Position numbers and translations under genes: made by a program. A stretch of 64,000 nt of DNA from Desulfosarcina cetonica JCM 12296. GTDB lineage: Bacteria; Desulfobacterota; Desulfobacteria; Desulfobacterales; Desulfosarcinaceae. Location of the stretch: assembly GCF_001311845.1 (NCBI RefSeq), contig NZ_BBCC01000010.1:1-64000 (forward strand), in the 5' to 3' direction. The notes below the pieces were generated by a model. That model was not told the DNA's origin and made no database searches. It was given only the letters and a program-made list of their open reading frames with translations. Below, in pieces: positions 3,933 through 9,817 of this stretch (position 1 is its first letter; every line of letters begins with the position of its first letter).

Positions 3933-5762
3933 ATGGGGCAAACCGAGCAGAACAAGGGACTGGTTCGACGTGCCAAGGCGAAACTGTCGCATTTAAACGT
4001 TGCCCAGGCCACCCGCTGGTCCGCATATTTTATCGCCATCGGATTGATTGCCGGCTTAGGATCGGTGGTCTTCCACTATTTTTGTCAGCTTGGGATTCAC
4101 TTCTTCCTGGACATGGCGGCCGGCTACCGGCCGCCTGCGCCCGCCGGCGAGCATCACCTGCTGCCGCTGACCACAACACCACCCAACCGTTGGGTACTCC
4201 TCTTTTTACCGGCATTCGGCGGTATCTTGAGTGGATGGCTGGTCTACACCTTTGCACCCGAGGCCGAGGGACACGGTACGGATGCGGCCATCCGGGCCTA
4301 TCACTACAAAGGTGGCTTTATTCGCAACCGTGTGCCGATCATCAAGACCATCGCTTCAGCGATTACCTTGACGACCGGCGGTTCCGGCGGTCGAGAGGGC
4401 CCCATCGCCCAGATCGGTGCCGGGTTCGGTTCTTTTCTGGCAACCACCTTCAAGCTCTCCGATCGTGAACGACGCATCATGATGGCGGCCGGCATCGGTG
4501 CCGGCGTGGGAAGCATCTTTCGGGCGCCGTTGGCCGGCGCGTTGTTTGCCGCCGAGGTGCTTTACCGGGATCCCGATTTCGAATCCGAGGTGATCATCCC
4601 CGCAGGCATCTCATCCGTTGTGGCCTATTGTGTTTTCTGCCTGGTGTTCGGTTGGGGGTCCCTGTTCGATTCACCGCCGTTCAAGTTTCGCAATCCATTG
4701 GAGTTGGGCCCCTATTTGGTGCTGGCACTGGTGCTTGTGGCAATGGGAATTTTTTACATCAAGGCGTTTTACGGAACGATCCACCTGTTTGAATCCGTCA
4801 AAAAAATTCCCAATCATCTGAAACCGGCGATTGGTGGTTTGCTGACCGGCATCATTGGTTTCTTTCTGCCCCATACCCTGGCTTTTGGGTACGGATTTGC
4901 CCAAATGGCCATCAACAATGAACTGGCCATTCCGTTTTTGCTGTCCCTGGCCATCGGCAAGGTCCTCACCACCTCTTTCTCCATCGGCTCGGGGGGCAGT
5001 GGCGGCGTTTTCGGACCGTCCATTGTTGTCGGCGGGGCCATGGGAGGTGTCGTCGGACAATTCTTCCATTCCATTATGCCCGGTGTGGTGACCCAGCCCG
5101 GCGCTTTTGTGGTGGTGGGCATGGCCGGCTTTTTTACTGCCGTATCCAATGCGCCGATTTCAACGATCATCTTTGTCAGCGAGATGACCAACTCCTACCA
5201 TTTGCTGCTTCCCAGCCTGTTGGTTTGCTCGGTCGCCTATATGGCATCCCGCCGCTGGACGATTTTCAGCTGCCAGGTTCAAAGCAAGGTGGACTCTCCG
5301 GCCCATTCGGGTGATTTTTTCGTGGATATCCTCCAATCGATTGCGGTTTCCGATCTGATGCCAATGATCCAGAAAGTTACCCTGATTCCACAAAGCATGC
5401 CCTTTGTCGAGTTCAAACGCTACTTTTCGGAGACCAAGCAGCACTATTTCCCAGTGGTCGATGAGGATCAGCGACTCGTGGGGATTTTCTCGGTAAACGA
5501 TATCCGCGCCGTTCTTTTCGCTCCGGAGATTGAACATCTGGTGGTGATGAAGGATGTTGGAACATCGGATATCATCGTCACCACCCCCGATGAAGATCTC
5601 AATGCCGTGCTCCGGAAGTTTACCACACGCAATATCGACAGCCTCCCTGTGGTCCGCACCGACGATCACGGAACTCTCCTGGGAATGCTCAACCGGCGCG
5701 AGGTTATCGCTGTCTATAATCGGAAGGTGGAAGAGGCGAAGTCCAAACGTCAGGTACGATAG
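3933..5762 (+). CDS. ClC-type chloride channel/antiporter with C-terminal CBS pair
   Basis: 609 aa. The membrane part (about residues 25-450) carries the ClC ion-path motifs: GHGTDAAIRAYH in place of the classic GSGIP, SGGREGPIAQIG with the gating glutamate, and GSGGSGGVFGPS. About ten hydrophobic helices are visible. Residues about 465-600 form two CBS domains (VSDLMPMIQKV and VGTSDIIVTT), which in the family bind adenine nucleotides and tune transport. It acts in the inner membrane, either as a Cl- channel or Cl-/H+ exchanger. It starts 3 bases after the aminotransferase stop and converges with truA. Confidence 0.93.
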   Translation: MGQTEQNKGLVRRAKAKLSHLNVAQATRWSAYFIAIGLIAGLGSVVFHYFCQLGIHFFLDMAAGYRPPAPAGEHHLLPLTTTPPNRWVLLFLPAFGGILSGWLVYTFAPEAEGHGTDAAIRAYHYKGGFIRNRVPIIKTIASAITLTTGGSGGREGPIAQIGAGFGSFLATTFKLSDRERRIMMAAGIGAGVGSIFRAPLAGALFAAEVLYRDPDFESEVIIPAGISSVVAYCVFCLVFGWGSLFDSPPFKFRNPLELGPYLVLALVLVAMGIFYIKAFYGTIHLFESVKKIPNHLKPAIGGLLTGIIGFFLPHTLAFGYGFAQMAINNELAIPFLLSLAIGKVLTTSFSIGSGGSGGVFGPSIVVGGAMGGVVGQFFHSIMPGVVTQPGAFVVVGMAGFFTAVSNAPISTIIFVSEMTNSYHLLLPSLLVCSVAYMASRRWTIFSCQVQSKVDSPAHSGDFFVDILQSIAVSDLMPMIQKVTLIPQSMPFVEFKRYFSETKQHYFPVVDEDQRLVGIFSVNDIRAVLFAPEIEHLVVMKDVGTSDIIVTTPDEDLNAVLRKFTTRNIDSLPVVRTDDHGTLLGMLNRREVIAVYNRKVEEAKSKRQVR

Positions 5763-5774
5763 AAGGGACTGACT

Positions 5775-6530
5775 TTAATAGATGACTTCCATGAGAAAAA
5801 GACCCTGGGGCGGAGCGGTGGCGCCGGCCAGGGACCGATCCCTGGATCGAAGGATCGTTGCGATCTGATCGGCCGGAATTTTGCTCAGACCCACCTCCAC
5901 CAGGGTGCCGACGATGTTTCGTACCATGAAGCGCAAGAAGCCATTGGCCGTGATATCAACGTGCAGTCTTCCATCGTCGGCCGTTTGAAGGGCTGCCTGG
6001 TGGACCGTCCGAATGGTGTGCGCCCGGGGGCTGCCGGCTCCCTCGAAGGACTTGAAATCATGGGTGCCGATGAGAAAACGGGCCGCCTTTGCCATTTCTG
6101 CCGTGTTCAGCGGTGCGCGAATATGCCAGACGAACTGGCGGCCGATGGCCGGAGCCAAGGGGCGATTGAGCAGGTGATAACGATAGCGTTTGCGTTTGAC
6201 ATCGAAGCGGGCGTGAAATTCGTTGGGCATTGGGTCGCAGGCACGGACGACCACATCGTCGGGTAAAAGGCTGTTCAATCCCTTGAAAAAGGTTTGGGCA
6301 TCAAGGCCTGCGGTGGTTTTGAAACTGGCTACTTGGCCGCGTGCATGTACGCCGGCGTCGGTGCGGCCCGAACCGATCACAGCCACCTTTTCCCGGGTCA
6401 TGACTGCCAGCGCCGATTCGATGGTTGCCTGCACGGTGCGGTCGCTTTTCTGTCGCTGCCAGCCGTGGAAACCGGAACCATCGTATTCAAGGATCAGACG
6501 AAAGGTCTGCTGTTTTTCTCTCCCGATCAT
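5775..6530 (-). CDS. truA: tRNA pseudouridine synthase A
   Basis: About 251 aa, normal for TruA, which converts uridines 38-40 of the tRNA anticodon arm to pseudouridine. The catalytic aspartate is in GSGRTDAGVHARGQ near residue 55, and the N-terminal LEYDGSGFHGWQ, the middle KRKRYRYHLLNRP and the late GFLRFMVRNIVG are all family hallmarks. A GTG six bases upstream (6536) is possible, but ATG 6530 is better spaced from the AGGA. It lies 18 bases after the AEC transporter on the same strand, so they are probably one transcript. Confidence 0.96.
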   Translation of the reverse strand: MIGREKQQTFRLILEYDGSGFHGWQRQKSDRTVQATIESALAVMTREKVAVIGSGRTDAGVHARGQVASFKTTAGLDAQTFFKGLNSLLPDDVVVRACDPMPNEFHARFDVKRKRYRYHLLNRPLAPAIGRQFVWHIRAPLNTAEMAKAARFLIGTHDFKSFEGAGSPRAHTIRTVHQAALQTADDGRLHVDITANGFLRFMVRNIVGTLVEVGLSKIPADQIATILRSRDRSLAGATAPPQGLFLMEVIY

Positions 6531-6548
6531 GGACACGTCCTTTTTCAG

Positions 6549-7466
6549 TTAAAACAGCATGAGCACGGCGCTCATGGAGAAGAATGAAAGTAAGGTGGAC
6601 AGTACGATGGCAGTGGCGGCGAATTGGGTATCACTGCCGAGCTGGGAAGAGAGGACAATGATGGCCGGGGAGGTGGGAAGGGCAAAAAAGAGCATGCCGA
6701 CCTGTTTGGAAAGGGGCGAGGCGTTCAGCGCGTTAAGAAAAGAATAGCCGATCAAGGGTAACAGGACGAGTTTGATCGTGCATCCCAGGAGCGATTGGCC
6801 GAGATGGGTTTTCAAGTTTTTTAGCCTCAAGGTGCCGCCGATGGAAATGAGGGCCAAAGGGAGGGTCACCATGGCAGCCAGGCGCAGGGTGTTGTCGATG
6901 AAGACAGGGAATTCACCGATAAAACGGGCGTAGGCCATGCCACTCAGGCAGCCGATAATCAGCGGGTTGGAAATCAGGGCGCGCAGGGTGATGCGAACCC
7001 TTTCGCGCATCGCGATGGCCCTTCCCGAAAACCAGATCAGGGTGGAAACCGCCAGGACATTGATGAAGGGAATGATGAACCCGATCAAAATCCCAAAGCG
7101 CGAGACCGCCGGTTCCCCAAAGGCGTTCATGATTACCGCCACGCCCACGTAGGTGTTAAAGCGGTAACAGCTCTGGGAAAAGGAACCGGCCGAAAACCGG
7201 CTGACCCGGAAAATTTTGATGCAGACCGTACTGACGATATAGATCGTGGCGATGGTGGCCATGGCGGCGACGATCAAATCGAGCGTGCCGTTGTCAACGA
7301 TCGGAGCGGCACCGATTTTCCAAAACAGCAGGAGAGGAAAAAAAATGAAGTAGACGATTCGGTCCGATGCCTTGAGAAACGGTTCCGTGGTAAAATTCAG
7401 GTGGCGCAGGAGGGCGCCGAGCCCTATGAGGGCGAAGACCGGAAAGATCGTATTGAGGATGATCAT
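6549..7466 (-). CDS. AEC family (auxin efflux carrier-like) transporter
   Basis: 305 aa with about ten hydrophobic helices in two halves. The start MIILNTIFPVFALIGLGALLR, the YVGVAVIMNAFG motif in the middle and the final segment FFALPTSPAIIVLSSQLG are typical of the AEC/PIN-like family. Members export organic acids or other small anions across the inner membrane; the substrate here is unknown. The gene starts 6 bases after the stop of the small dual-CxxC protein and is followed by truA, all on the minus strand. Confidence 0.9.
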   Translation of the reverse strand: MIILNTIFPVFALIGLGALLRHLNFTTEPFLKASDRIVYFIFFPLLLFWKIGAAPIVDNGTLDLIVAAMATIATIYIVSTVCIKIFRVSRFSAGSFSQSCYRFNTYVGVAVIMNAFGEPAVSRFGILIGFIIPFINVLAVSTLIWFSGRAIAMRERVRITLRALISNPLIIGCLSGMAYARFIGEFPVFIDNTLRLAAMVTLPLALISIGGTLRLKNLKTHLGQSLLGCTIKLVLLPLIGYSFLNALNASPLSKQVGMLFFALPTSPAIIVLSSQLGSDTQFAATAIVLSTLLSFFSMSAVLMLF

Positions 7467-7472
7467 TGCGGA

Positions 7473-7655
7473 CTAAATCCTGTCACAGCGAAAATTAGCC
7501 AGCTCGCGCTCCATGGTTTCGTCAAGCTGGTGGATGAACCGGGTCAGGGGGTATTCGGCACCGCAGCCCGTGCAGCGCAATGTTACCGCCCTTCATGTGC
7601 GCTTCAGTACCAGCGCATGGTGGCATTTTTCACAGGTGGGTTTTTCTTCAGGCAT
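7473..7655 (-). CDS. Dual-CxxC small protein with in-frame TGA, probable selenoprotein
   Basis: Sixty codons plus TAG, read straight through one TGA at codon 21 (7593-7595 on the plus strand). The product has CEKC at residues 8-11, then KRT-U-R, then CTGC near residues 29-32, and a C-terminus with DETMERELANFRCDRI. Both sides of the TGA are in the same frame and each holds a CxxC pair, so the TGA is most simply read as selenocysteine. I recall a family named 'dual CXXC motif small (seleno)protein' in Desulfobacterota that fits this layout. A stem-loop starts 14 bases after the TGA (7558-7578). AGGGA lies 8 bases before the ATG. A nonsense sequencing error from TGC or TGT cannot be ruled out. 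Function unknown; probably a small zinc or redox protein. Confidence 0.75.
7558..7578 (-). promoter_or_regulatory. Candidate bacterial SECIS stem-loop
   Basis: In the mRNA, GCGCUGCA pairs with UGCGGUGC (8 bp, two G-U) around the loop CGGGC. The loop begins 22 bases after the UGA, inside the 16-37 base window, and has a G within its first two bases, as the published bacterial SECIS rules ask. The element would recruit SelB to decode UGA as selenocysteine. The stem also encodes the second CxxC, so the base pairing could be partly chance. Confidence 0.55.
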
Positions 7656-7716
7656 TCAATGGGTTCCCTGGGTTGGCGCTGATCGAAAACCGACAGCAAG
7701 TGGCATAAACTTGAAA

Positions 7717-7779
7717 ATGGACGCTATTTATGTCATATGGCGGCGGTTTGCAAGGGGCGGCGAGAACGCGCGCGATTGA
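7717..7779 (+). CDS. Possible arginine-codon leader peptide upstream of argJ
   Basis: A 20-codon frame encodes a peptide ending WRRFARGGENARD, with four arginine codons (CGG CGG, AGG, CGC) near its end. Its TGA is 6 bases before an intrinsic terminator (7786-7814), and argJ follows. This is the layout of transcription attenuation by ribosome stalling. Against it: there is no good ribosome site and I could not find a clear antiterminator pairing. Confidence 0.25.
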   Translation: MDAIYVIWRRFARGGENARD

Positions 7780-7785
7780 CAACGG

Positions 7786-7814
7786 CCTGGCCTTTGGGCC
7801 GGGGAGACTTTTTT
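7786..7814 (+). terminator. Intrinsic terminator upstream of argJ
   Basis: CCTGGCC pairs with GGCCGGG across a 4-base loop and is followed by GAGAC and six T. It reads on the plus strand only, yet no complete plus-strand gene lies just before it, which points to a leader attenuator or a short RNA. Confidence 0.6.
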
Positions 7815-7880
7815 GCCGTATCCGCTGCCCTTCAGCCATGATATCACTCAAACGACGACCAATAAGCGAGGGAATGGACG

Positions 7881-9065
7881 ATGGCGTCAATGACCTGTAA
7901 GGGCTTTCGGGCCGGCGGTGTTGCTGCCGGTATCAAAAAAGAACGGCAACCTTGACCTGGGGTTGCTCGTATCGGATCGACCGGCCCGGGTGGCGGCGGT
8001 CTTTACCACCAACCGGGTTCAGGCAGCGCCGGTTCTTTTGGACCGCGAGCGGGTCAAATCCGGCACGGCGCGGGCCATCATCGCCAATGCGGGTAACGCA
8101 AATTGCGCCAATGGTCCGCAAGGTATGCAGGCCGCCGTGGCCACCACCGCAGCGGTGGCCAAGGCCCAATCCATTCCCGACGATCAGGTGCTGGCCGCCT
8201 CCACCGGGGTCATTGGCGTCCCCTTTCCGACGGAGAAAGCCGTGGCGGCCATTCCGGATCTTGTCGCGGGCTTGGAAGAAGATGGCATTGATTTTCTGGC
8301 CCGGGCCATCATGACCACCGATACCCGTCCCAAGGCCGGCGCGCGTGAAGTCCGGGTGGATGGGAAAAGCTGTCGGATTGTCGCCGTGGTCAAAGGCGCC
8401 GGCATGATCCGTCCGGACATGGCCACCATGCTCTGTTTTGCCTGCACCGATGCGGAAATATCCGGTCAGGACCTTCAGGCGGCCTTGAAGCGCGCGGTGG
8501 ATATCTCCTTCAACCGCATTACCATCGATGGCGATACCAGTACCAACGATACGGCGGTTCTCATGGCCAACGGTGCGTCGGGTGTTTTCATCCAATCGGA
8601 AGACGCTTTGACCGCTTTTCAGCAGCAGCTCGATGATCTGTTCATGGATTTGGCCCGGCAGATGGTCGCCGATGGCGAGGGAGTCACCAAGGTGGTCGAT
8701 CTGACGGTACGCGGGGCGCGCAGTCATGACGATGCCTGGCGCATGGTCGACACGATTGCCCATTCGCCGCTGGTCAAAACCGCTTTTTTCGGTGAAGACG
8801 CCAATTGGGGCCGCATCATCGCCGCAGCCGGACGCGCCGGCGTCGATCTCGATCCGGATCGGCTGGATCTTTATTTTGACGATGTGCAAATGGTGGAGGG
8901 CGGTACCGGATGCGGTGTGGCGGCTGAGGAAAAGGCCACCGCCGTATTGAAAAGGCGGCCTTTGCCGTCGTTCTGGACCTGAACCTGGGGGATGGCATGG
9001 CCAGCATGTTGACCTGTGATTTCTCTTTGGATTACGTCAAGATCAACGCCGATTACCGCTCCTGA
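7881..9065 (+). CDS. argJ: Bifunctional ornithine acetyltransferase / N-acetylglutamate synthase (two frameshifts)
   Basis: About 394 aa when two breaks are mended, normal for ArgJ, which moves the acetyl group from N-acetylornithine to glutamate in arginine synthesis. The N-terminus MASMTCKGFRAGGVAAGI joins KKNGNLDLGLLVSD after removing one A from the run 7935-7940. The C-terminus continues as KAAFAVVLDLNLGDGMA to the TGA at 9065 after adding one A to the run 8950-8953. The self-cleavage site with its threonine nucleophile is visible as MATML, and TIDGDTSTNDTA and FGEDANWGR are conserved. GAGGGA precedes the ATG by 7 bases. A terminator and possible Arg leader lie upstream. Confidence 0.92.
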
Positions 9066-9088
9066 AGCACGACCGGGATGAAAGCCGC

Positions 9089-9817
9089 ATGACGCAGGTG
9101 CGCTTGCAGAAATATCTTTCAGAAGCCGGCGCCTGTTCACGGCGGCAGGGCGAAGCCCACATCCTTGCCGGCAAGGTGACGGTGAATGGTCGTGTGGTCA
9201 CCACGTTGGGGACACGCATCGATCCGGCAGCGGATGTGGTGCGTCTCGATGGCGTTCCCGTGATGCGGATCCAACCGCTGATCTATGTGATGCTCAACAA
9301 ACCCAAAGGGGTCGTGACCAGTTGCAAGCATCGGGGCGAGGCAGTGGTCACGGATCTGGTAGACCTGCCCTCGCGGCTATTTCCGGTCGGTCGTTTGGAT
9401 AAGGCTTCCACCGGCTTGCTGTTGTTGACCAACGACGGGCGGATCCACCATCGTCTTTCGCATCCCTCCTTCGACCATGAAAAAGAGTATGACGTGACTG
9501 TTCAGCGCGCCATCGATGACCGATCCCTCCAGACCCTGGCCACAGGCGTTCGGCTGGAGGGCGTGATGACACGACCGGCGCGGGTAACGCGAGTTTCGGC
9601 CAGGCGCTTTCGCATGGTTTTGATGGAGGGCCGCAATCGCCAGATTCGCCGCATGGTGCAGCAGGTGGGCAACCGGGTGGTCCGCCTCCACCGCATTCGG
9701 GTGGCCGGTCTGAAACTGGCTGAACTCCAGCCGGGTGCCTGGCGGCATTTGACCCCGGCTGAACGTGAAGGGCTGCTCAACCAGCTCGGCCTGAACGAGA
9801 CTCGTGGAGATCCTTAA
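9089..9817 (+). CDS. rRNA pseudouridine synthase, RsuA/RluB/RluE family
   Basis: 242 aa. An N-terminal S4 RNA-binding domain (about residues 3-60, LQKYLSEAGACSRRQGEAHI) precedes the catalytic domain with GRLDKASTGLLLLTNDG, where D104 is the catalytic aspartate. EGRNRQIRRMVQQVG near residue 180 is also diagnostic. It isomerises a specific uridine in rRNA; RluB (23S) is the nearest guess, but RsuA cannot be excluded. It starts 23 bases after argJ and ends 2 bases before the radical SAM gene, so the three form a likely operon. Confidence 0.92.
   Translation: MTQVRLQKYLSEAGACSRRQGEAHILAGKVTVNGRVVTTLGTRIDPAADVVRLDGVPVMRIQPLIYVMLNKPKGVVTSCKHRGEAVVTDLVDLPSRLFPVGRLDKASTGLLLLTNDGRIHHRLSHPSFDHEKEYDVTVQRAIDDRSLQTLATGVRLEGVMTRPARVTRVSARRFRMVLMEGRNRQIRRMVQQVGNRVVRLHRIRVAGLKLAELQPGAWRHLTPAEREGLLNQLGLNETRGDP

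Follow-up and report, generated by a model that had tools for sequence, protein, structure and literature searches.

Within the 64,000-nucleotide stretch of Desulfosarcina cetonica DNA analysed here (the window), one short minus-strand frame raises the question of whether an in-frame TGA ends a gene or is read through as selenocysteine (Sec). Translation of positions 7655–7473 gives MPEEKPTCEKCHHALVLKRTURAVTLRCTGCGAEYPLTRFIHQLDETMERELANFRCDRI*, in agreement with the layout proposed in the initial annotation: 60 codons holding a CxxC, a single TGA and a second CxxC, closed by TAG (Table 1). The frame cannot begin further upstream because an in-frame TGA immediately precedes its ATG. Under the standard code it is split into a 20-codon ORF (7655–7593) and a 35-codon ORF starting with TTG (7580–7473), and two longer ORFs, of 93 and 88 codons, overlap it on the plus strand. 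Broken and overlain in this way, the gene could well be overlooked by a gene caller, and hence by standard annotation.

Table 1. Positions in the window of the selenoprotein gene, its elements and its neighbours.
Feature	Position	Strand	Description or basis
Selenoprotein CDS	7473..7655	minus	60 codons + TAG; ATG directly behind an in-frame TGA; match to NF041197.2
In-frame TGA, codon 21, selenocysteine	7593..7595	minus	TGA at the aligned codon in 90 of 118 copies read
First CxxC, codons 8–11	7623..7634	minus	Translation and alignment
Second CxxC, codons 28–31, within the hairpin	7563..7574	minus	Translation and alignments
Cys57, fourth residue from the C terminus	7485..7487	minus	Cys here in 56 of 74 main-group Sec genes
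SECIS-like hairpin	7558..7578	minus	8-bp stem; 5-nt loop 7570–7566; loop 22 nt past the UGA
PF03547 Mem_trans transporter, downstream gene	6549..7466	minus	Starts 6 nt after the selenoprotein stop codon
argJ (PF01960), divergent upstream	7890..8982	plus	Frame lost near the start; listed ORF 7918–8982

With C in place of U, the translation matches all 53 positions of the NCBIfam profile NF041197.2 (78.2 bits, E = 3.8e-22; curated cut-off 40 bits), and the gene scores 69.4 bits when this family is searched for in its own genome. The initial annotation pointed to a family of this layout, and NF041197 is that family. None of the 11 Pfam families listed for the translation reaches its cut-off. The residues leading to the TGA (R19-T20-U21) place the gene in the RxU form of the family.

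Homologues that run across the TGA are widespread. A copy of NF041197 above the cut-off is present in 51 of 60 genomes (D. cetonica itself and 50 of its 59 relatives), each with one TGA inside, so that the reading frame spans the codon in all 51; other homologues carry Cys there, and none of 14 control genomes matched the profile. Among the 63 matches from the search of relatives, every one of the 58 copies read has TGA as its aligned codon, the other five being sub-cut-off fragments that cover the profile from position 1 to 28–30 and contain no stop. The same TGA, followed by conserved protein sequence onward to the C terminus, recurs in 30 of the 36 genera of this search, and the independent genomes that bear it include five whose assemblies consist of one or two contigs (G001, G004, G006, G008 and G039). 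A survey of the phylum, in which up to 16 candidates were scored per genome and whose counts are therefore lower bounds, found matches in at least 112 of 395 genomes, at least 88 of them above the cut-off (own genome included), together with at least 26 over-cut-off rows that cover the Sec site and have no stop. We read 60 of these survey matches, namely all 26 stop-less rows and a further 34 that were hand-picked (32 Sec and 2 Cys); the rows left unread include a partial one from G425. A single-protein scan of named genomes returned one short match, of 18 residues at 67%, to L147, a Geodermatophilaceae MAG. Among the 118 copies read in all, own gene and GxU paralogues included, the 28 without TGA at the aligned codon have TGC or TGT.

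These alignments bear directly on the explanation that had been put forward as the main rival, a sequencing or assembly error that turned a Cys codon, TGC or TGT, into TGA. Cys forms of the family do exist, and a remark that the sequence contains base errors is supported by the neighbouring argJ, in which the frame is lost after about 17 codons at a run of A. Nevertheless, because the same TGA stands in 58 of 58 copies read, from independent genomes that include one-contig assemblies, and distant relatives have Cys at this codon, a base error is excluded for the family. As the downstream hairpin, described below, also shows covariation among the TGA copies that is lacking among the Cys copies, an error is exceedingly improbable for the gene in the window.

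A changed genetic code, in which TGA would be read as some other residue such as Trp, is addressed by the same alignments. We saw no sign in its favour; all 28 non-TGA copies have Cys rather than Trp at the codon, and 23 of the 74 main-group Sec genes end with TGA as their stop codon, leaving this reading a negligible chance.

The genome itself encodes most of the apparatus for Sec insertion. Of the four sel genes that the initial annotation expected to find together, selB (369.7 bits, over its cut-off), selC (tRNA-Sec, anticodon tca) and selD are present, the last as two different genes (L049 and L050) that each carry a TGA (U) at one conserved site, which we take to be the catalytic Sec site of SelD. 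The fourth, selA, was not found in the 86.8%-complete assembly, although it is present in 12 of 12 genus mates. The gene that follows selA in one genus mate likewise has no close match in the D. cetonica assembly (best 29% identity), which fits an assembly gap without proving one.

The absence of selA from this assembly could be taken to favour a third alternative, that the locus derives from a Cys gene by decay and that translation truly stops at its TGA, as it does at TGA by default, making it a pseudogene or the source of a 20-residue peptide. Set against this are the conservation of the protein to its C terminus, behind the same TGA, across those 30 of 36 genera, the conservation of the RNA structure, and the presence of selB, tRNA-Sec and selD. 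We consider decay highly improbable.

The RNA structure was analysed in the 118 copies, which had been sorted by C-terminal pattern into sets A, B, C and D of 74, 16, 26 and 2 members (main-group Sec, GxU Sec, main-group Cys and GxU Cys genes, respectively; L009, L078 and L080 were placed by hand). Folding of the mRNA reproduces the 8-bp stem with a loop at 22 nt that had been claimed for the window gene. The position of this loop and its sequence, CGGGC, agree with the bacterial SECIS rule as given in a 2026 review, with the loop 16–37 nt after the UGA and a G as its first or second base (PMC13188914). Taken alone, the hairpin is not significantly stable (z = −0.17, −1.15, −0.69 and +0.72 in four stretches that overlap), and synonymous recoding of the gene gave a fold at least as good as the native one in 9 of 100 cases. 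We therefore used the relatives, and it is from them that the significance of the hairpin comes.

Across the 74 main-group Sec genes, 84.6% of the cells of the 8-bp helix are paired (77.5% in shuffles), 50 cells are changed on both sides (14.6 in shuffles) and the covariation score is 0.305 (0.180 in shuffles); for each of these measures none of 500 shuffles, which do not allow for the relatedness of the genes, gave a value as high. Versions of the helix slid along the alignment are paired in only 22.5–49.8% of cells. Two other, weaker measures are not clearly separated from the shuffles: both sides are changed in 4 pairs against 3.6 in shuffles (321/500), and further pair types number 18 against 15.3 (22/500). 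The outermost pair fails in 37 of the 74 genes and the innermost in 27, RNAalifold recovers the middle five pairs from their alignment, and the loop G at 7569 is invariant (74/74). The 26 main-group Cys genes, by contrast, show pairing in 53.4% of helix cells, which does not exceed the level of shuffles (111/500).

The two classes also differ in where the hairpin lies and how well it folds. The best hairpin has its loop at 21–23 nt in 64 of the 74 Sec genes and in 0 of the 26 Cys genes; in the other 10 Sec genes the best rule-abiding hairpin lies elsewhere. With the GxU genes included, the best rule-abiding hairpin has a mean energy of −8.7 kcal/mol in 90 Sec genes against −3.0 kcal/mol in 28 Cys genes, and reaches −6 kcal/mol or better in 77 of 90 and 9 of 28, respectively. 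Only 32 of the 90 Sec genes, not including that of the window, and 4 of the 28 Cys genes rank with the best 5% of their synonymous recodings. One Cys copy, L102, keeps a stem of 7 bp at an equal distance, and its loop is wider, starts TC and breaks the loop rule; this stem may be left over from an ancestor that had Sec.

The selenoprotein reading made in the initial annotation is thus upheld by a TGA common to relatives, by Cys at the same codon in distant ones and by a covarying hairpin, and we regard the decoding of codon 21 as Sec as nearly certain. The basis is comparative: the UGA is conserved, its replacements at that codon are Cys, and the hairpin usually lies 21–23 nt past the UGA and covaries across the UGA genes taken together but not across the Cys genes taken together. 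By analogy with established bacterial Sec biology, SelB carrying Sec-tRNA(Sec) would bind the hairpin so that Sec is inserted at residue 21 and translation does not terminate. The locus adds a well-supported copy of the selenoprotein, together with covariation evidence that the UGA of the family is decoded.

The history of the Sec/Cys difference was followed in a tree of 116 rows and 53 columns (L009 and L078 left out), in which 37 of the 112 inner branches are unresolved; 83 of the 118 copies are included in protein alignment A2. The Cys forms of the main group fall into groups of 11 and 14 plus the single copy L102, and the Sec/Cys label needs two changes on the tree (2–3 in bootstraps). L102 is sister to a TGA copy of the same genus, L116 (support 98/86). 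The 14-copy Cys clade ends in IYD rather than [DN]R[IL].

The fresh angle of this case is that the RNA signal overlaps the second CxxC, whose codons the hairpin covers, and that this overlap may fix an amino acid. The codon after the first Cys of that motif is of the form A-N-G in 59 of 74 main-group Sec genes and in 1 of 26 Cys genes, and it ends in G in 74 of 74 and 15 of 26, respectively; among the GxU members, 13 of 16 Sec genes and neither of the 2 Cys genes have an A-N-G codon here. Codons of this form are exactly those for Lys, Thr, Arg and Met, and in the window the codon is ACG, for Thr29. Its A pairs in the stem (A-U in 59 of 74) and its G is the invariant loop G. On balance we favour the view that the SECIS hairpin shapes the protein, pressing this codon towards A-N-G, and that Sec-to-Cys switches free the site for P, S and other residues; the constraint would leave Sec forms mostly with R, K, T or M beside a Cys that probably binds metal. 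As evidence for an effect of the RNA signal on the residue, the codon bias is suggestive but not proof, since the genes compared share ancestry and the Cys forms represent only two or three independent groups. If the effect is real, the RNA signal rather than protein function explains a conserved residue in the second CxxC.

A structure model of the protein places strands at residues 14–19 and 24–28 with Sec between them, and is weak (pLDDT 68, pTM 0.47). Its matches are mostly zinc-ribbon proteins and are also weak, with no Foldseek hit at E < 0.001 and a best VIA Z of 4.3; the best are entries for chain I of RNA polymerase II (Z ≤ 4.3), presumably the zinc-ribbon subunit Rpb9. In the predicted arrangement the four Cys of a single zinc ribbon would bind metal, while Sec, flanked by Arg19 and Arg22, would sit in the turn between the two strands that join the knuckles. 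There it might act as an exposed redox site, perhaps partnered by the C-terminal Cys, which occupies the fourth position from the end in most Sec copies of the main group (Table 1) as against 10 of 26 Cys copies. We offer this picture of a zinc ribbon with four metal-binding Cys, an exposed redox Sec and perhaps a C-terminal partner only tentatively. Given the position of the gene beside argJ, a LysW-like carrier role was considered and rejected: LysW carriers have an EDWGE-like C-terminal tail, and here the C terminus is FRCDRI and a LysW chain matches at only E = 0.077.

The Mem_trans gene that follows on the same strand is a probable operon partner of the selenoprotein gene. Upstream, at 7890–7955 on the plus strand, argJ opens MTCKGFRAGGVAAGIKK and then, at a run of A, loses its frame and runs into a stop; argJ of the one genus mate compared (L007) reads on past this run, and the frame loss is probably a homopolymer error in the assembly. 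To compare loci, the nearest long ORF on each side was picked mechanically in 100 loci. A divergent argJ lies upstream in 31 of 95, and downstream there is a Mem_trans transporter in 27 of 97 and a tRNA pseudouridine synthase in 19 of 97, all of them Sec loci. A phosphoribosyltransferase domain is matched by 12 of 95 upstream neighbours, which we take to be the same genes as a BLAST cluster of 12 found exclusively in Cys loci. In 12 loci of the Cys clade that ends in IYD (L095–L101, L105, L106 and L110–L112) the family member follows, at a distance of 5–41 nt, a gene of about 185 codons on the same strand, probably the one with the phosphoribosyltransferase domain. Neighbours differ between clades and no single partner emerges, so a conserved functional partner was rejected. 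As to mobile copies, the protein matched no phage record, and no plasmid record matched positions 5700–9100 of the window in a DNA-level search in near mode.

We conclude with very high confidence that the gene encodes a genuine dual-CXXC small selenoprotein (NF041197; OS_HP3, RxU form) whose UGA is decoded as Sec. It is not new in kind: the family is already catalogued and published, and its function only inferred. NF041197, named CxxC_Se_CxxC 'dual CXXC motif small (seleno)protein', and OS_HP3 share with the window gene the two CxxC motifs, the Sec between them and the RxU, and we found no difference of substance. In Table 1 of the 2026 review the family appears twice, as OS_HP3 (RxU), which the review credits to Zhang and Gladyshev 2007, and again under the name 'hypothetical protein DW' (GxU) (PMC13188914). 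OS_HP3 is also in a table of a 2022 paper (PMC9312934), and that of Desulfosarcina widdelii was the sole known selenoprotein missed by deep-Sep among the genomes tested there (PMC12013277). Accession SMF39960.1 is listed as OS_HP3 in the 2022 table (PMC9312934) but as 'hypothetical protein DW' in the 2026 one (PMC13188914).

Among solved structures the closest chain by sequence is 2jrp ('putative cytoplasmic protein'; E = 3.6e-5), which with 2jne (yfgJ; E = 0.0031) represents small zinc-ribbon proteins of the PDB that match the family profile, in both cases weakly and over part of it only. The D. cetonica genome carries a second family member, L003 (G000:C30:29238–29390, minus strand), of the GxU type and with its own TGA and hairpin, which scores 43.4 bits for NF041197 in the genome search and 51.7 bits with Cys for Sec, and which fits the published 'hypothetical protein DW' form (PMC13188914). 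That form has its layout in common with the window gene, but carries GRU in place of RTU, is without the C-terminal [DN]R[IL], and is divided from the main group by a branch supported at 100/100.
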